The notes beneath the pieces were generated by a model. The model saw only the letters and a program-made list of their open reading frames with translations, was not told the DNA's origin and did not search any database. Both the position numbers and the translations under genes were made by a program. DNA of 31,329 nucleotides, taken from a virus. Shown here piece after piece: positions 3,685 through 19,727 of the stretch; the stretch's first letter is position 1; each line of letters starts with the position of its first letter. The stretch lies in IMG/VR virus record IMGVR_UViG_3300025809_000075, positions 1-31,329 of that record; one strand, 5' to 3'.

Positions 3685-4785
3685 ATGGCTATTACAAACA
3701 CAGACTTCCAGAACATCGCTCTGGCAATCTCCGCTTACTCAGACGAAGCTTACACAACAGCTAAGAAACTGAACGGCACAGGCATCGTTGCTTCCGACCA
3801 GCGCATCGACCTTTCCGGTGAAAGCTTTATCGGTCAATTCCGTTGGTACAAGCCTTTGTCAGCTACTGTAAACGTTGCTTCTTTGGCTTCTGCTACAGAC
3901 GGTACATACACTGGCATGTCCACAGACGTTGCTGACTTCGTTAAGACTGTTCGTACTTTCGGTGCAGAGCAAGTTAACATGCAAGAAGTTGTAAGCAAAG
4001 CCGATGGTCTTGCTAAAATCGCTCGTGACTTCGCTGAAGTACGCGCACAAGACGAGCATGACGCTCTTTTGTCTGTTCTTAAAGGTGTTGCTGCTCACGA
4101 AGTTAGCCTTGGTACTACTTCTGGTATCTTGGACTTCGACACAGACGCTGACACTGCTGGTGTTGGTTCTTTCGTAGACGTTAACGCTGCTGGCCTTCAC
4201 GGCGCTGCTGCAACTGGTGCTGGCGATGCACGTAAATTGTTTGACGCTTCTGCAATGGGCGCTGCCCGTGGCGAACGTTTGTTCCGCTCTATCGGCGCTG
4301 CATTCAAAGACTATGAGCCTGATTTCATGTACATGGTTACTTCTCCTGAAGTGATGGCTGAAATGCGTGCTGCTAACTTGGTTGACGAAACTACTGTTAC
4401 TGAAGGTAACATCGAGTTCACAACTATCTTCGGTGGCAAATTCCGCCTCATCATGACTCGTGCTAACCAAGGTAACTTGGGCGCTGAAGCTGAAGTAAAC
4501 GCTGTGTCCACAAAGACTACCTTCATCATCAAGCCAGGTTCTGTTGCTTCTGCTTCTATGCCTATCCCAACACCTGTTGAAGTTGACCGTTCGGCTGCTT
4601 CTTACATGGGTGGCGGTTCTACTAACGTTTGGTATCGTTGGGGCTACGCAATGCACCCAATGGGTTACGACTGGGCTGGTGCAACCACTGCTTTCGCAAC
4701 TAACACAACTATGGGCGCTTCTGCTTCTTACGCACGTAAAATGGACGCATTGAACTTGGGCATCTTGCCTATCTTCCACGCTTAA
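3685..4785 (+). CDS. Major capsid protein
   Basis: 366 residues with an AAAGGAA ribosome site. Expected to form the icosahedral shell with the HK97 fold. An N-terminal helical region is followed by an Ala/Gly/Thr-rich beta-rich domain. A segment near 230-255 (ThrSerProGluValMet then GluPheThrThrIlePheGlyGlyLys) resembles the core P-domain of phage coat proteins. Codon use differs from the neighbours: C-ending codons such as aac, gac, ttc and atc dominate, as expected for the most highly expressed gene. It is flanked by scaffold and head-tail adaptor genes. No protease gene is visible nearby. Confidence 0.88.
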   Translation: MAITNTDFQNIALAISAYSDEAYTTAKKLNGTGIVASDQRIDLSGESFIGQFRWYKPLSATVNVASLASATDGTYTGMSTDVADFVKTVRTFGAEQVNMQEVVSKADGLAKIARDFAEVRAQDEHDALLSVLKGVAAHEVSLGTTSGILDFDTDADTAGVGSFVDVNAAGLHGAAATGAGDARKLFDASAMGAARGERLFRSIGAAFKDYEPDFMYMVTSPEVMAEMRAANLVDETTVTEGNIEFTTIFGGKFRLIMTRANQGNLGAEAEVNAVSTKTTFIIKPGSVASASMPIPTPVEVDRSAASYMGGGSTNVWYRWGYAMHPMGYDWAGATTAFATNTTMGASASYARKMDALNLGILPIFHA

Positions 4786-11664: not shown

Positions 11665-11672
11665 AACTAAAT

Positions 11673-11701
11673 GGTCATCCCTTCGGGGGTGGCCTTTTTT
11701 T
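11673..11701 (+). terminator. Strong terminator ending the structural region
   Basis: An 8-bp stem, GGTCATCC with GGGTGGCC including G-U pairs, closes on a CTTCGG loop and is followed by seven T residues. The hairpin is identical to the one at 19701. It separates late structural genes from the early region. Confidence 0.88.
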
Positions 11702-11736
11702 ACCAAATCTAGAAGTATTTTTACCCCAAAAAAGTG

Positions 11737-11758
11737 GGGGTTTTGCACCCTCTATAAT
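11737..11758 (+). promoter_or_regulatory. Early promoter candidate 1 (G4-N7-C3-TCTATAAT)
   Basis: GGGG (11737-11740), seven bases ending in A, CCC, then TCTATAAT. It lies just after the terminator and 42 bases before the first early gene. No TTGACA-like -35 box is present 17 bases upstream of TATAAT (that hexamer is AAAAGT). It shares its plan with the elements at 14224 and 15455. It may be a hairpin promoter for the virion polymerase, or a -10-only host promoter. Confidence 0.6.
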
Positions 11759-11799
11759 AGAAGAACGAAAGAACTTAACCTTAAATGGAGACCAAAACA

Positions 11800-13171: not shown

Positions 13172-13434
13172 AAGTACAACTTGAATTATACATCAATAAT
13201 GTTGAGCATCAACTTGACGCTGAAATGATTGACTATGGTGTTGTGATTCGTCATACAGGTACAGTAGAAGACCTTGACGGAGACTATGAAGTTATCGAAG
13301 GTCCAGAGTTTGCTCACATCACACTTACTGATGAGGCTGGCAATCAGTGGAGCCCTCATAGCGAACTACTTGAGTCAATGGATGATATACTACGTGACTA
13401 TTGGTATCAACTAGTAGAGGATAATCTAATCTAA
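13168..13434 (+). CDS. Acidic small protein, unknown
   Basis: 88 residues, strongly acidic, mostly beta in its first two thirds and helical at the C-terminus (SerMetAspAspIleLeuArgAspTyrTrp). The start is coupled to the 18-residue peptide. The last A of its TAA is also the first base of the endolysin ATG, so the two may be co-translated. No family recognised. Highly acidic early proteins often bind host proteins as DNA mimics, but nothing specific supports that here. Confidence 0.6.
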   Translation: MKVQLELYINNVEHQLDAEMIDYGVVIRHTGTVEDLDGDYEVIEGPEFAHITLTDEAGNQWSPHSELLESMDDILRDYWYQLVEDNLI

Positions 13435-13838
13435 TGATAATGACAGCAGTGACATGCCTAGCTTTGAATGTCTTTTTCGAGGCTAGGCACGAGACCATAA
13501 CAGGACAAATAGCAGTAGCCGAAGTTACACTTAACCGTGTTGCTGATAAGCGCTACCCTAATAACGTATGTGATGTAGTCTGGGAGAAGAACCAATTCTC
13601 TTGGACTCATGACGGTAAACACGATGACCCTACCCGTATGTCCCACCTGGACCAGAGAGCCTGGGAGAGCATCGTAGAGCTATCAGAAGACATTTTAGAT
13701 GGTCAGGATATACTTCTTGGCCTCTCATCAACACACTACCACTCTGTGGCAGTCTCGCCCTTTTGGAAGTCTCACTACGAGGCTGACGGTCGGATTGGCA
13801 ACCATATCTTTTATACTAATGAAACCCCCTATAAATGA
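13434..13838 (+). CDS. Endolysin, SleB-like cell wall hydrolase
   Basis: 134 residues that form only the Hydrolase_2 (SleB) domain. Motifs in order: CysLeuAlaLeuAsnValPhePheGluAlaArg with the likely catalytic Glu16, then the helix GlyGlnIleAlaValAlaGluValThrLeuAsnArgVal, AsnValCysAspValValTrp, AsnGlnPheSerTrp, and near the end ThrHisTyrHis and GlyAsnHisIlePheTyr. This family cleaves the glycan backbone of peptidoglycan. No signal peptide or membrane anchor is present, so it would need a holin to reach the wall. ATG 13440 is an alternative start. It lies in the early region, apart from the structural genes. Confidence 0.85.
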   Translation: MIMTAVTCLALNVFFEARHETITGQIAVAEVTLNRVADKRYPNNVCDVVWEKNQFSWTHDGKHDDPTRMSHLDQRAWESIVELSEDILDGQDILLGLSSTHYHSVAVSPFWKSHYEADGRIGNHIFYTNETPYK

Positions 13839-13849
13839 GGAAGACCAAA

Positions 13850-14221
13850 ATGAAAACTCTTATCACAGCAGCAATCATCGCAGTATCCGCAACTACAGTA
13901 GTAGCTAACCCCTTGACCAAAGCAGAGAGCCTTGGTAAATGTGTTGGCATTGCTCAAACAATCTTAGACAACTTCTCGATTGATATCATGTTGTCTGACA
14001 AATGGAACAACGAAAAACTCACAGCTATTGTTGACATTAGCTTTGACCGTCTCTTCGAACTTGAAGAGGCTACAACAGAAGGCATGGGCAGCGCAACAAC
14101 CAAGGCTGTTAAAGAACGCATGGGCGAAAAGTTCGACTATGGTATTCTGTTTGGAGGTGGCTTTGCTAACGCAGGTGGCCTAAATAACGCAACAGAATTC
14201 ATGTTGAATAGCTGCAAATAA
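13850..14221 (+). CDS. Exported protein with signal peptide and two cysteines
   Basis: 123 residues from ATG 13850 after GGAAGACCAAA. Residues 1-19 form a Sec-type signal peptide (Met-Lys-Thr-Leu, hydrophobic core, Val-Val-Ala cut). The mature part is helical, with one Cys near its start (GlyLysCysVal) and one at the extreme C-terminus (AsnSerCysLys), so a disulfide could tie the ends together. A Gly-rich segment (LeuPheGlyGlyGlyPheAlaAsnAlaGlyGly) lies before the last helix. First of six exported two-cysteine proteins. No family recognised. Confidence 0.7.
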   Translation: MKTLITAAIIAVSATTVVANPLTKAESLGKCVGIAQTILDNFSIDIMLSDKWNNEKLTAIVDISFDRLFELEEATTEGMGSATTKAVKERMGEKFDYGILFGGGFANAGGLNNATEFMLNSCK

Positions 14222-14223
14222 CT

Positions 14224-14246
14224 GGGGAAATCCACCCCTCTATAAT
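14224..14246 (+). promoter_or_regulatory. Early promoter candidate 2 (G4-N7-C4-TCTATAAT)
   Basis: GGGG (14224-14227), AAATCCA, CCCC (14235-14238), TCTATAAT. The G and C runs can pair as a 4-bp stem with a 7-base loop. It lies directly after a stop codon and 31 bases before the next ATG. The hexamer at the -35 position is ATAACT, which is not host-like. Confidence 0.65.
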
Positions 14247-14279
14247 GAACAAATCAAAGTCTTGAAAGGACATACTATG
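14234..14279 (+). repeat. 46-base direct repeat, copy 1: promoter, leader and start codon
   Basis: Identical to 15465-15510. It spans ACCCCTCTATAAT, a leader with the ribosome site GAAAGGA, and the ATG of an exported-protein gene. The mature proteins downstream are unrelated, so the promoter-leader unit was probably duplicated. Confidence 0.9.
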
Positions 14280-14762
14280 AAAACTCTCGTAATCGCATCT
14301 ATCATTGCAACTGCAACCGCAACGGCAACTTTCGCTGGAACAACAGCTACTTGGGGTGGTACTACAGGTACCTTCGCTGAAGGCTGTACCTTTCAACAAA
14401 ATGTTGCTGGTCAAATGTCTCTTACTAATAACACTTGGACAGTCGATGACCCTGCCTTGATTCAGGTTAAAACACGCAATGTTGGCAACCTTACTATTGT
14501 ATCTGACAACAAACTACGCACTACTGCGGGTGTAGAAGTTGACAGTGCTACTGTTAACTACACAGGAACAATAGTTAGTAACGCTCACGGTGCTGTTGTT
14601 AACATCAATCCAACAGAGATTGCTATCGGCAACTTAACAGCAGGTAACGGTGTTAAAGTTGTTAACATCCAACTTAAAGGTACTGCTGAAATGTCTAACA
14701 CAGACGAACTATCTAGCACTACTGCTTACAAAATCAACCACACAGTAACTTGCCTACAGTAA
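14277..14762 (+). CDS. Exported pilin / spore-coat-U-like beta protein (tentative)
   Basis: 161 residues from ATG 14277; an in-frame codon at 14262 is upstream of the ribosome site. The signal peptide is residues 1-20 (cut after PheAlaGly or ThrPheAla). The mature chain is Thr/Asn/Val-rich and reads as alternating beta strands. A Cys lies near the start (GluGlyCysThrPhe) and another in the last strand (HisThrValThrCys), the arrangement seen in SCPU and fimbrial subunits. The next gene encodes a candidate Ig-like chaperone. Fold and role are inferred; it could instead be a periplasmic exclusion or lysis factor. Confidence 0.45.
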   Translation: MKTLVIASIIATATATATFAGTTATWGGTTGTFAEGCTFQQNVAGQMSLTNNTWTVDDPALIQVKTRNVGNLTIVSDNKLRTTAGVEVDSATVNYTGTIVSNAHGAVVNINPTEIAIGNLTAGNGVKVVNIQLKGTAEMSNTDELSSTTAYKINHTVTCLQ

Positions 14763-14763
14763 T

Positions 14764-15150
14764 ATGAAGTATATTGTAGCTATGGTGCTAATGCTGTTAC
14801 CAACTCTTTCCTCGGCACACTCTATGTTGCCGGGGTTTGAGGTTGAATATGCTCCCGCTCCTGTCTTCACAAAGACTTACGAGCTTGAGAACCATTATGA
14901 CTTTCCAGCTACTTTGGAAGTCTATGTGCTAAACAAAGATGGTTCTCCAGCTGTAGGTTGGAGGACTGACAAAGAAACTTATAAAATGAAACCTAAAAGC
15001 AAGAATCAAGTATCTATAGACTTTAAGTCTGTTGGTCAAAGAAAGCTTCTTGTATGTTCAAAACTTGTAGGAGTCGGTTATGAAGAAGTTAAGCCTAGTA
15101 TTATCAGTGTTGTCTGCAGTCGCCTTATCATCAATGGCAACAGCGAATAG
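14764..15150 (+). CDS. Exported Ig-like / fimbrial-chaperone-like protein (tentative)
   Basis: 128 residues, one base after the previous stop. The signal peptide is residues 1-18, ending LeuSerSerAla-His. The mature part has strands of Ig type: PheThrLysThrTyrGluLeuGluAsn, AlaThrLeuGluValTyrValLeu, then MetLysProLysSerLysAsnGlnValSerIleAspPhe. That last block resembles the basic Pro-x-x-x-x-Gln-Val stretch of PapD-like chaperone N-domains. Only one domain is present, about half the length of a true pilus chaperone. Two Cys (LeuValCysSerLys and ValValCysSerArg) are close together. The last 24 codons overlap the next gene out of frame. Confidence 0.4.
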   Translation: MKYIVAMVLMLLPTLSSAHSMLPGFEVEYAPAPVFTKTYELENHYDFPATLEVYVLNKDGSPAVGWRTDKETYKMKPKSKNQVSIDFKSVGQRKLLVCSKLVGVGYEEVKPSIISVVCSRLIINGNSE

Positions 15151-15451
15151 CTACAATATACAAACTAGCAATGGTGCTGGTTGTTCACAAAATGAAAACA
15201 CAGGTCGTTCTGTAGAGTTCGGTGCTGATGTTAATACTTACACAAATGAAAGCAACTTCTCTGTTACTTATAGCATCCAGTTGGGTCGTGATAAGTTAAA
15301 GAAGATTGACTGTTCTGCCATGTATAACCTAGAAGTATCTAGACAACGCATGGAACTTGAAAAGCAACGCTTAGAACTTGAGCTACTACGTACTCAAATA
15401 GCAAACGCTAAAGCCCAAAAGAAAGAAGTCAATCTTGGTGATGACTGGTAA
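15080..15451 (+). CDS. Exported protein with C-terminal coiled coil
   Basis: 123 residues, starting inside the previous gene with AGGAGTCGGTT upstream. The signal peptide is residues 1-22 (ending SerMetAlaThrAla). The mature N-terminal half is beta-like: ThrSerAsnGlyAlaGlyCysSer, ArgSerValGluPheGlyAla, then SerTyrSerIleGlnLeuGly. The second half begins LysIleAspCysSerAlaMetTyr and continues as a Glu/Leu/Arg/Gln coiled coil of about 40 residues. Two Cys only. The layout suggests a periplasmic oligomer; a spanin-like or surface-assembly role is conceivable but unproven. Confidence 0.65.
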   Translation: MKKLSLVLSVLSAVALSSMATANSYNIQTSNGAGCSQNENTGRSVEFGADVNTYTNESNFSVTYSIQLGRDKLKKIDCSAMYNLEVSRQRMELEKQRLELELLRTQIANAKAQKKEVNLGDDW

Positions 15452-15454
15452 ACC

Positions 15455-15477
15455 GGGGTAAACTACCCCTCTATAAT
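15455..15477 (+). promoter_or_regulatory. Early promoter candidate 3: perfect 6-bp hairpin plus TCTATAAT
   Basis: GGGGTA (15455-15460) and TACCCC (15464-15469) are perfect inverted repeats around a three-base loop, AAC. TCTATAAT follows. A short GC-rich hairpin with a 3-base loop just upstream of the start is the hallmark of N4 virion polymerase promoters. The -35 hexamer position reads TAAACC, which is not host-like. Confidence 0.7.
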
Positions 15478-15510
15478 GAACAAATCAAAGTCTTGAAAGG
15501 ACATACTATG
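15465..15510 (+). repeat. 46-base direct repeat, copy 2: promoter, leader and start codon
   Basis: Identical to 14234-14279, including the ribosome site and the initiator ATG. Only the loop and upstream flank of the hairpin differ. Confidence 0.9.
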
Positions 15511-15804
15511 TTTAAATCTATCATCGCAGCAGCAGTAATCGCAACAGCAACTTTCGTAACTCCAGCAAGTGCAGCACTACCTATGGCTACTTGTAAGGTA
15601 TTAGGTAACCTAATTGAGAACGTAGCTACACTTCGTGACGCAGGTGTTTCCCCGGTAGAAGTGTATGAACTGCTAACTGAAAATGGCCTCACACCAGCAG
15701 TCGCCGCTAACATGCTTGAGATTGTTTTTATTACAGGTAAAGATGTTGACGGTAGCCTCTTGAACCCATTGTTCGTAGGTACATGCGTAGGAGAATCAGC
15801 ATAA
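15508..15804 (+). CDS. Exported small helical protein, two cysteines
   Basis: 98 residues from ATG 15508. The signal peptide is residues 1-22 (ending ThrProAlaSerAla). The mature part of about 76 residues is helical, with Cys near each end (AlaThrCysLys and GlyThrCysVal) that could form one disulfide. The middle repeats a helix-turn pattern: AlaGlyValSerProValGluValTyrGluLeuLeu, then AsnGlyLeuThrProAlaValAlaAlaAsnMetLeu. Unknown function. Its signal peptide resembles those of the genes at 13850 and 14277. Confidence 0.7.
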   Translation: MFKSIIAAAVIATATFVTPASAALPMATCKVLGNLIENVATLRDAGVSPVEVYELLTENGLTPAVAANMLEIVFITGKDVDGSLLNPLFVGTCVGESA

Positions 15805-15938
15805 TGACTAAAGCACAACAACGTAAATCACCTGAGTTCATGAAAGAAATCTCATTCAAAGAACTCGTAAAAGCAATCGATGCCAAATGGTCACACACCT
15901 ACGGAGACGTAGATGACCAAGGTAACGAGGTTCGTTAA
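15804..15938 (+). CDS. Small cytoplasmic protein, 44 residues
   Basis: Starts in the stop of the previous gene (TAATG) with AGGAGAATCAGC upstream. Basic N-terminal third, acidic C-terminus (TyrGlyAspValAspAspGlnGlyAsnGlu). No signal peptide, in contrast to its neighbours. No family recognised. The coupled start and good ribosome site support it as real. Confidence 0.55.
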   Translation: MTKAQQRKSPEFMKEISFKELVKAIDAKWSHTYGDVDDQGNEVR

Positions 15939-15949
15939 TATTCTACAGT

Positions 15950-15991
15950 GTCCCTCTTCGGAGGGGCATCATAGAGCACTAACGCTCTTTT
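15950..15991 (+). terminator. Tandem hairpins, probable terminator
   Basis: The first hairpin is GTCCCTC-TTCG-GAGGGGC (15950-15967), a UUCG tetraloop on a 7-bp stem. The second is AGAGC (15973-15977) with GCTCT (15984-15988), followed by three more T residues (to 15991). They lie in the 73-base gap before the gene at 16012. Confidence 0.65.
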
Positions 15992-16011
15992 AGCCCTATA
16001 GGAGAAATAAA

Positions 16012-16215
16012 ATGGGAATTATCTTTGCAATCGTAATGCTTGTCGGCGCAACAACAGCAGCTGAAAATGCCGAACTATGTATCCACAGTGACCGCTCAAC
16101 ACTCACACAAGCTCAAGTATCTGAATGTGAATCATATGCAGAACTTCATGACGAAAACCTTGGTTGGAACCTTGGCGGAATGACTACTGGTGCAGTTATC
16201 GTCATGGGTAACTAA
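16012..16215 (+). CDS. Small exported or membrane-anchored protein, two cysteines
   Basis: 67 residues with ATAGGAGAAATAAA upstream. A short hydrophobic N-terminus (residues 3-16, with Ala-Thr-Thr-Ala-Ala) could be a signal peptide or anchor. It is followed by GluLeuCysIle and SerGluCysGluSer, then a hydrophobic Gly-rich end. The two Cys match the pattern of the five exported proteins upstream. Unknown function. Confidence 0.55.
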   Translation: MGIIFAIVMLVGATTAAENAELCIHSDRSTLTQAQVSECESYAELHDENLGWNLGGMTTGAVIVMGN

Positions 16216-16643: not shown

Positions 16644-18851
16644 ATGAACTCAATGGAAATACTTTGCGAAAACATTCGTGAACGGCAAGGCTACCTTATG
16701 GATTTAAAAGGTGAAAAACCTGACAAGCGAAACACTGCTTGGCATCTATATGACAAAGACCCAGAAGAAATGATTAGCTTTACCTACGGACATATACTAA
16801 GTAAGATTGAGATATTGGCTGAACTAACCACTATCCTATCTTCAGTAGGTGGCTCTATCAACAGACGATATAAACTAAAACTAAACGAGGTAGACTCAAT
16901 CCACTTGGGTTGGTTTGTGTTCTTGGCCTATGTTGATACAGGTATCGTAGATATCAATCGTAAGCGCAAGAAGAAGAAAAACGGCAAGCTTAGTAAACAC
17001 TCTTCTTACCATGTTCAGGTAAAAGATGCAGCTGCCCTTAACAGTGTCTTAGAACAAATAGACACAAACGATACAGAAATGTTTCCTTCTCCTGTAGCAC
17101 CTGCTGATTGGGAAGTTGGGAAGTTTTACCATGAAAGTGGATACCCATTAATTAAGAAGAACCCACATGAAGATGCGGTTAAAGCTTGTAAGTTGGGTGG
17201 CACAGAGTACTTAGTGGAAACGCTAAACAAACTAAACAAGACTGCTTGGCGGATTAACCCGTTTATATTTGACACATTTAAGAAGTGTACCTTCTTAGGT
17301 TCAGATAAAACTCCGTTTAAGTTTAAGAAAGAGGTAGACCCTGTTAAGAGGGCTTCCTTAGAAATAGAAGCAAGGGCTATTGAGAAGCTCGCTGAAAGGA
17401 ACAAAGACAATGCTTTCTATCATCTGTATAATGTTGACTTTCGTGGTCGCATATACCCTAACACTGCGTTTCTACATGAGCAATCCTCAGACAACGCCAA
17501 GGGGCTTCTACTCCTCGACAACCCCGTACCTCTAGGGGAAGATGGTTTCTACTGGCTATCAGTACACACAGCTAACATGTGGGGTAACGATAAGGTCTCT
17601 CTTGATGACCGTGCTCAGTGGGTTCAAGACAACTTCTTCGACATTTGTTCTTATGTGGGAGACCCTATGAAGAATACAGGGTGGATGGATGCAGACAAAC
17701 CCTTTTGTTTCCTTGCTTGCTGTTTTGAGCTTAATAGTTTAGCTGAGTGGGGTGTTCATAAAGACCCCGAAGACTTTCCTTCATGCCTACCTATATACAT
17801 CGATGGCTCTAACAACGGTGTTCAGCACCTCGTTGCTATGTCTAAAGATGAGGCGGTTGCTCCTTTGGTTAACTTAAAACCACAAGAGTTACCGGGGGAT
17901 GTCTACATGTTCATAGCTGATAAGGTTATTGAACAAGTAAAGATAGATGCTGAAAAGCTTTTAAGTGTTGAAGGTACGACTGAAGCATTTAAAGAACTCT
18001 ACGATGACTTTGTTGCTCTAGAACAGAGTGTTAATAGACACTCGGTAAACCCTAAATCAGAGCTATTCTCACAGGCTATTAAACGCCGTAGTGAGTTTGG
18101 TAACGCAAAGAGAGACTTGTTAAAGAAGTTTGCTCCTTTGTACTGGTACAACATCAAAGAGAAAAAGATATGGCGTAAGACTGTTAAACGCCCTGTCATG
18201 ACGCTGGGCTACGGTGCTGTTAAGTACGGCATGGTAGAACAAGTACACGATGATACACGAGACATCTCTACTTACTTAAGAGATAAACACAAGTCGTGGT
18301 CTGCTTACCTAGGCGATATGGTTTATGAAACCTGCTATCGTGAACTCAAAGGACCAGCACAAATGCTGCGTATGTTTGAGGCTCTAGGTGAACAAGAGAA
18401 TGAGAAAGATAAACCTATTGCTTTTCGGCAAATCATAACAGGTTTACCTTTTGTTCATGCCTATCGTAAAGGTGAAAATAGAACTGTTAAGCTATCACAT
18501 AACGGTGTACGCATGGAGCTAGAGTTTACTCTCTGGCAAAACGCTACACTAAATAAAGATAAGCAAACACAGTCGGCTCCGCCTAACATTGTGCATAGCA
18601 TTGACGCAGTACACTTGTCTATGTTTATACACGATACAGACTACCCTGTTACTGTTGTGCACGACTCTTTCGGTTGTCACGCAGGTAACATGAATAAGGC
18701 ATTCTATGATGTACGTAATCACTTTGTAGAGCTTTATGATAGTAACCCACTTGAGCACATCTTCGAACAGATGGGTGCTTTACCACTAATACCCAACAAG
18801 GGAAATCTGAACGTAGCTGATATTATCGCTTCAGACTTCGCATTTGCATAA
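16644..18851 (+). CDS. T7-type DNA-directed RNA polymerase
   Basis: 735 residues (T7 has 883), with AGAAGGAATGG upstream. All signatures are present: DFRGRIY, motif A IleAspGlySerAsnAsnGlyValGlnHis with Asp387, motif B Arg511-Lys515-Tyr523-Gly with exactly the T7 R627-K631-Y639 spacing, and motif C ValHisAspSerPheGly with Asp674. The C-terminus LysGlyAsnLeuAsnVal...SerAspPheAlaPheAla closely matches that of T7 RNA polymerase. The shorter length falls in the N-terminal, promoter-binding part, so its promoters probably differ from T7's. The gene ends the early region and precedes the replication genes, so it likely transcribes them and perhaps the late genes. Confidence 0.95.
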   Translation: MNSMEILCENIRERQGYLMDLKGEKPDKRNTAWHLYDKDPEEMISFTYGHILSKIEILAELTTILSSVGGSINRRYKLKLNEVDSIHLGWFVFLAYVDTGIVDINRKRKKKKNGKLSKHSSYHVQVKDAAALNSVLEQIDTNDTEMFPSPVAPADWEVGKFYHESGYPLIKKNPHEDAVKACKLGGTEYLVETLNKLNKTAWRINPFIFDTFKKCTFLGSDKTPFKFKKEVDPVKRASLEIEARAIEKLAERNKDNAFYHLYNVDFRGRIYPNTAFLHEQSSDNAKGLLLLDNPVPLGEDGFYWLSVHTANMWGNDKVSLDDRAQWVQDNFFDICSYVGDPMKNTGWMDADKPFCFLACCFELNSLAEWGVHKDPEDFPSCLPIYIDGSNNGVQHLVAMSKDEAVAPLVNLKPQELPGDVYMFIADKVIEQVKIDAEKLLSVEGTTEAFKELYDDFVALEQSVNRHSVNPKSELFSQAIKRRSEFGNAKRDLLKKFAPLYWYNIKEKKIWRKTVKRPVMTLGYGAVKYGMVEQVHDDTRDISTYLRDKHKSWSAYLGDMVYETCYRELKGPAQMLRMFEALGEQENEKDKPIAFRQIITGLPFVHAYRKGENRTVKLSHNGVRMELEFTLWQNATLNKDKQTQSAPPNIVHSIDAVHLSMFIHDTDYPVTVVHDSFGCHAGNMNKAFYDVRNHFVELYDSNPLEHIFEQMGALPLIPNKGNLNVADIIASDFAFA

Positions 18852-19685: not shown

Positions 19686-19700
19686 GAATTAAACAATAAC

Positions 19701-19727
19701 GGTCATCCCTTCGGGGGTGGCCTTTTT
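19701..19727 (+). terminator. Terminator after the SSB gene
   Basis: Same hairpin as at 11673 (GGTCATCC CTTCGG GGGTGGCC), followed by five T residues. It limits the highly expressed SSB transcript. Confidence 0.85.

Follow-up and report, generated by a model that had tools for sequence, protein, structure and literature searches.

We analysed the whole of IMG/VR virus record IMGVR_UViG_3300025809_000075, a stretch of 31,329 bases that is called the window here. Between a cell-wall hydrolase gene and an RNA polymerase gene, the window carries six small genes, g1 to g6, whose products (P1 to P6) have signal-like leaders. Three of these genes, g2, g3 and g4, form a conserved cassette in which g3 has the predicted fold of a pilus chaperone. 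Related contigs and loci are referred to by their L or G numbers. The six genes are:

13850..14221, + strand: g1 (P1), exported; Cys 31 and 122; its leader DNA recurs in L010 before an unrelated 112-residue payload
14277..14762, + strand: g2 (P2), exported, predicted all-beta; Cys 37 and 159; conserved C-terminal strand of the YxIxHxVTCxQ type
14764..15150, + strand: g3 (P3), predicted single-domain PapD-like chaperone fold; Cys 98 (strand F1) and 118 (strand G1)
15080..15451, + strand: g4 (P4), exported; two Cys; heptad-like C-terminal helix
15508..15804, + strand: g5 (P5), exported; Cys 29 and 93; distant phrog_2315 relative
16012..16215, + strand: g6 (P6), 67 residues, probably exported; Cys 23 and 39

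A first-pass annotation had described these genes as a cluster of six exported proteins with two cysteines each, and this description held. All six are open frames, and all carry Sec-type leaders with a home-made leader score of 6.67 to 8.30. As a background, a score of at least 6.5 was reached by 2 of the 41 other genes in the window, both membrane-helix-like, and in 0.4 to 5.6% of trials with whole-protein shuffles of the six. P6 is the weakest export case, since its leader (MGIIFAIVML...) has no basic residue near the start. Each protein has no cysteine in the leader and exactly two in the mature part. The joint Poisson chance of six such counts is 7.8e-6 (window background, 61 Cys of 6,915), a figure that overstates the surprise because exported proteins favour even cysteine numbers anyway. 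Membrane segments are not evident in the mature parts, where mean hydropathy over 19 residues peaks at 1.16. These sequence features support export of the six well, and disulfide bonding is probable. The mature parts had also been called unrelated, which was borne out for the pairs compared (g1-g5, and g2-g4 and g3-g4 on mature parts only), a subset of the 15 pairs. Two things escaped the annotation: g2, g3 and g4 belong together as a conserved cassette whose g3 has a predicted pilus-chaperone fold, and the leaders stay constant while the payloads behind them are exchanged. The only match to g1 and g6 was one contig that encodes both at 100% identity.

The cassette recurs well beyond the window. 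The order P2-P3-P4 was found in all nine distinct marine contigs (the window, L007, L016, L054, L055, L056, L058, L059 and L084), and P4 was present in the 8 of 8 that run on, L058 ending inside g3. The g3 and g4 reading frames overlap by 71 bases in the window, and P3 and P4 overlap in 7 of 8 marine contigs. A spanin reading of this overlap was rejected, as g4 lacks a lipobox and g3 has a predicted immunoglobulin (Ig) fold. The cassette lies in other gene surroundings in L055 and L056. In L059, its neighbour (4169-4543) encodes a small exported protein whose sequence suggests an outer-membrane barrel.

The entry to a wider set of phages was given by weak tblastn matches of the L059 g4 (E 0.04 and 0.07) to Vibrio phage 1.081.O and a V. 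campbellii plasmid, where g3-like and g2-like genes adjoin in both. P4 then matched 52 phage records and later 181 INPHARED records (178 Vibrio, 3 Erwinia) at E up to 0.1, so some of the 181 may be chance matches. These counts suggest that P4 is common in Vibrio phages, some of which have laboratory strains as hosts. Neighbourhoods were read in 1.081.O, 2.275.O, D479, Erwinia pEp_SNUABM_01, Thalassavirus (six records), 1.205.O, K450 and vB_VhaS-tm, and in four plasmid copies. P3, P4 and a two-cysteine P2-like gene occurred together in all eight phage lineages and in three of the four plasmid copies (three Vibrio plasmids). By profile and neighbourhood, the cassette is present in T4-like, T5-like, jumbo and Erwinia phages. 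Two plasmids and four of the phages (1.081.O, 2.275.O, D479 and the Erwinia phage) have the genes as P3-P4-P2, and P2-P3-P4 is the order in the others. Some annotations omit or shorten cassette genes. On the plasmids, a second P4 copy was seen in V. campbellii (L123, NZ_CP026317.1 29500-32900), with no second exported neighbour in 3.4 kb, and a second P2-like exported two-cysteine gene lies downstream of the cassette in the Vibrio sp. THAF190c megaplasmid (L114:3823-4293). Bacterial genome contigs showed no cassette relatives in two scans made with a few peptide patterns only. No matches were obtained by tblastn with P3 in plasmids and phages or with the window P4 in phages.

The marine and Vibrio sets were compared as profiles with the leaders removed. 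P4 matched at 98.5% (score 86, shuffles at most 15) and P3 at 92.8% (score 43, shuffles at most 13.6). The marine P3 set scored 19.1 against Thalassavirus P3 alone, not clearly above its shuffles (18.6), and the relation between these two therefore rests on the wider Vibrio set, which includes Thalassa. A comparison of Vibrio with Thalassavirus P3 was left out since one sequence is common to both sets.

The structure model of g3 (pLDDT, a local confidence score, 82.2) is an eight-stranded sandwich. In a Foldseek search of the PDB, its best matches were FimC, Caf1M, PapD and DraB (E 4.7e-6, probability 1.00). A comparison with PapD in VIA gave Z 10.4, with 95 residues at 2.6 Å; the VIA rows for g3 also include WxLIP and MSP-domain proteins. 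The top viral model in BFVD is PapD-like, has 109 residues and is the only one with E below 0.001. The g3 protein of Vibrio phage 1.081.O also has 109 residues, an agreement with that model in length alone (the accession identity is unconfirmed). Cys98 and Cys118 lie on predicted strands F1 (92-104) and G1 (116-124) and are invariant in all 15 aligned g3 proteins. By reading, the g3-like protein of L108 is an exception with four mature cysteines. Sequence matches of g3 to TAL effectors in the PDB were put down to leader composition, because no stretch passes alone.

These features place g3 next to a known class of proteins. Its likeness to the FGL chaperones (Caf1M, DraB) and to PapD and FimC lies in the predicted PapD-like N-terminal Ig fold and in the adjoining gene for an exported beta protein. 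According to PMC4133393 and PMC3706281, FGL chaperones are characterised by a disulfide between F1 and G1. The g3 cysteine pair occupies the corresponding predicted strands and could form the same bond. In the marine set, Arg120, two residues past Cys118, could serve as the base on G1. g3 may work like a chaperone of a chaperone-usher system.

The mature part of g2 changes while its surroundings stay constant. Between L007 and L058, all 20 g2 leader codons are identical at the protein level, as are all 60 mature g3 codons compared (synonymous divergence, dS, 0.05), whereas the mature g2 parts are only 42% identical with dS about 2.5. L054 and L055 present the reverse case, with identities of 88% for mature g2, 58% for g3 and 33% for g4. 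In blastn, the alignment of L058 with the window breaks off at 14335 (g2 codon 20) and resumes at 14733, about ten codons before the stop. The g2 payload is therefore swapped within a frame of leader and last strand that both stay constant. Judged by these alignments, mature g2 is exchanged between phages while the leader and g3 stay nearly identical. By reading, g4 consists of an N-terminal part with the two cysteines and a heptad-like C-terminal stretch. A similarity between g2 and g4 was rejected, as its probability fell from 62% with leaders to 0.7% on mature parts. Generic beta-sandwich matches of g2 (Z up to 7.9) were read as unspecific. A Fim pilin profile matched P2 with a probability of 0.2 in the marine set and 3.3 in the Vibrio set.

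The genes sit in a slot with constant borders. The border genes and the copies of a promoter-like motif are:

13434..13838, + strand: cell-wall hydrolase of an endolysin family (phrog_938 endolysin, 7.2e-23), left border of the slot; no leader
16644..18851, + strand: T7-type RNA polymerase (phrog_414, 1e-126), right border of the slot
15804..15938, + strand: 44-residue slot-border gene of the FKELVKAIDAKWSHTY type; conserved, with a similar open reading frame (ORF) in relatives; not exported
11729..11768, + strand: promoter-like 40-base motif (AAAARTGGGG-N8-CCCTCTATAATGAAGAAA type), copy 1, after the tape measure gene
14217..14256, + strand: promoter-like motif, copy 2, before g2
15448..15487, + strand: promoter-like motif, copy 3, before g5

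The window shares its gene order (tape measure, hydrolase, RNA polymerase, DNA polymerase, primase/helicase, ribonucleotide reductase) with Noahvirus DSS3_VP1 of the Naomviridae, and the two RNA polymerases are 46.8% identical. By gene order and the T7-type RNA polymerase, the window phage is classed as a Naomviridae-like siphovirus. Matches to the hydrolase by tblastn also lie to the left of the RNA polymerase in relatives. The hydrolase has a predicted leader in the distant relatives L025 (500-979), L033 (329-805) and L059 (3011-3553). A pair of terminator-like repeats, 97% identical, was seen at 11670-11699, after the tape measure gene, and at 19698-19727, downstream of the RNA polymerase gene.

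The contents of the slot differ strongly among relatives. L007 and L009 (RNA polymerase 82%), which do not differ from one another in this interval, hold g2-g3-g4 and g5. L010 has no g2-g3-g4 and instead holds a 112-residue two-cysteine protein, an exported collagen-like protein and g5. The slots of L013 and L035 contain no ORF that scored as exported, and the slot of DSS3_VP1 is filled by other ORFs, none of which scored as exported. The exported ORF families selected from these loci commonly have exactly two mature cysteines; the exceptions are the collagen-like protein and an L059 protein, which have none, and the L059 g2, which has four in total. The collagen-like protein (L010:5916-6824; Pfam Collagen, 3e-14) has the same leader and occupies the place of g2-g3-g4. 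L010 and L013 also carry another exported two-cysteine family ahead of the hydrolase. A family of exported two-cysteine proteins with a Gly/Ala-rich hydrophobic core was seen at L010:2783-3133, L013:5610-5972, L019:2908-3273 and L046:1838-2212 and in L086, L087 and L095, with several members directly behind the 40-base motif.

The window contains just three copies of the motif, which precede g2, g5 and the gene that comes next after the tape measure. Copy 1 scored 35.8 with a position weight matrix from 19 relative sites and 36.4 with one from 18, while six Markov-random sequences gave no matches over a score of 8. In G003 (69 kb) and G005 (47 kb), the motif is confined to the region between the tape measure and the RNA polymerase. 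The motif was also noted at L048 7301 and 7748, and two weaker copies follow the tape measure in DSS3_VP1. L055 and L059 carry the cassette without the motif. The motif looks like a phage RNA-polymerase promoter and may act as one. The six genes had been taken for early genes. We dropped this reading, as the genes behind the motif, both in the window and in its relatives of 69 kb and 47 kb, are those following the tape measure and cargo genes, with no replication gene among them.

The motif appears to be the front of a reusable module. Over the 60 bases that end with the ATG, g2 and g5 are 93% identical. The first 12 codons of g1, the L010 112-residue gene and the L010 collagen-like gene have 78 to 86% DNA identity, and codons 25-64 of the same genes are near chance level. 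Of the first ORFs behind motifs, 21 of 57 score as exported, in a survey with many duplicate rows and with motif sites that overlap those building the matrix. The motif also precedes proteins that read like homing-type endonucleases (L088 2228, L093 7238), and it therefore seems to travel with cargo.

We propose that this is a cargo slot with a g2-g3-g4 chaperone cassette in which g2 is the variable, envelope-acting part, a proposal to which we give an even chance. The leaders, the cysteines, the conservation of the cassette and the exchange of g2 come from the sequence, and the fold of g3 is predicted; from these we infer the chaperone-client pairing, the disulfide bonds, the location and the function. 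The slot of a lytic phage would take exported, disulfide-stabilised proteins behind a reusable promoter-like motif, ribosome site and leader. g3 would be a one-domain periplasmic chaperone like PapD or Caf1M, dedicated to g2. Its G1 edge, tied to F1 by the disulfide, would cover the open edge of the beta-sandwich of g2, with the constant last strand of g2 as the probable site of contact. We consider this pairing of chaperone and client rather probable. g4 would be an exported partner with a coiled-coil tail. g2 would do the actual work and be the member that is exchanged. Its site of action would be the periplasm or the surface of the infected cell, and it would most likely be directed at rival phages, as in superinfection exclusion, or at a variable target in the envelope. 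As a function, the exclusion of rival phages is possible and by no means probable; it was among the roles raised by the first-pass annotation, with envelope remodelling and surface decoration, all of which are possible.

Several findings weigh against this proposal. The g2 model is all-beta and weak (pLDDT 69), with no clear fold match. In every pair with finite dS, nonsynonymous divergence (dN) is below dS, so no positive selection was detected, and the diversity of g2 is better described as exchange and age. In five Thalassavirus records compared with Thalassa, g2 is 95.5-96.8% identical and g3 is 99.3-99.8% identical in four records and 95.6% in the fifth; g2 is more variable than g3 in four of the five comparisons and is not swapped. 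Marine P2 did not match the Vibrio P2 profile significantly (score 12.2, shuffles up to 11.5), and against Thalassavirus-type P2 it scored 21.6 (shuffles up to 16.1) at a probability of 4%. A constant client is therefore not established, as marine P2 and Vibrio P2 are not securely related. In contrast to FGL chaperones and PapD, g3 (128 residues with leader, 110 mature) is all one domain, with no second C-terminal Ig domain and no arginine in the A1 region, and an usher (PF00577) was found in 0/11 and 0/8, together 0/19, records, several of the IMG/VR records being fragments. Because of these differences, together with an F1-G1 loop of about 11-15 residues (105-115 in the model) compared with about 24 and the lack of a PapD_N (PF00345) profile match (none for g3; 0/8 records), we do not file g3 as a member of the chaperone-usher family.

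Another possible explanation is that these are ordinary moron-type accessory genes with unrelated small tasks, in which two cysteines are a habit of secreted proteins and there is no joint function beyond g2-g3-g4. Payload families that differ between close relatives, the unrelated other cargo behind the same motif and the restriction of g1 and g6 to one identical contig all fit this explanation, which we hold to be a serious one, somewhat short of an even chance. It does not explain why g2-g3-g4 stay together in phages and plasmids of very different kinds, or why the same promoter-leader module is reused. The exported proteins could also be lysis helpers that aid or time envelope disruption at the holin-endolysin-spanin stage. 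The slot comes after a hydrolase, holin and endolysin directly follow the cassette in Thalassavirus, rIIA/rIIB precede it in D479, and the promoter-like motif is shared with the gene after the tape measure. However, an exchange of g2 alleles is unexpected for a lysis protein, and the slot content is dispensable, since among close relatives L010 lacks the cassette and L013 and L035 lack an exported slot ORF. We regard a lysis role as unlikely.

Two explanations take the pilus fold more literally. In one, the cassette would build usher-free or host-assisted surface fibres: g2 subunits kept soluble by g3 would polymerise, or form a coat on the infected cell, and thereby make cells or released virions aggregate. 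This would suit the predicted fold of g3 and the exported collagen-like payload in the L010 slot, and Vibrio P2 can be aligned over the whole length with Fim pilins of E. coli (score 21, shuffles up to 16.3). The probability of that match is just 3%, however, no usher turned up in 19 records, and a phage that soon lyses its host would gain little from fibres, which makes this explanation improbable. In the other, g2 and g3 would mimic a host subunit and its chaperone and jam host pilus or receptor assembly, a dominant interference that blocks rivals. A host-type chaperone without an usher of its own and a g2 as variable as host subunits would both be consistent with such a poison, but g2 is at most a putative pilin. 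We judge it quite improbable.

Envelope superinfection-exclusion proteins such as T4 Spackle, Imm, Cor and Llp are small exported or membrane proteins of phages and are often single accessory genes. Here, by comparison, there is a set of three genes with a chaperone-like member and an exchangeable partner. One Vibrio P2 matched the spackle family in its leader only (E 0.013, residues 1-29), and there was otherwise no sequence match. We do not class the slot as a lysogenic-conversion module, which would belong to a temperate phage with an integrase, because integrase PF00589, the one recombinase family searched for, was found in 0/11 records. Thalassa genes match PHROG 37374 (P4), 25455 (P3) and 25895 (P2) over nearly their full length, so parts of the cassette are already known as families without a function; they are listed apart, under 'unknown function'. 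The window g2, g3 and g4 gave no match to these three. We found no earlier description of the g2-g3-g4 set in the literature searched, which left most subscription journals outside, and from the roseophage literature the available portion of PMC12629253 contains nothing on the cassette.

Our tentative suggestion is that lytic phages and marine plasmids share an undescribed mobile system, a minimal usher-free triad of chaperone, subunit and coiled-coil protein in which the subunit is exchanged like a serotype antigen. If this is true, it would be, to our knowledge, the first case of phages with their own pilus-type periplasmic chaperone and a variable client but no usher. Each phage would then have its own exported weapon or shield in the competition for one cell. 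With P4 apparently common in Vibrio phages, the role that lytic phages may play in the periplasm becomes testable.

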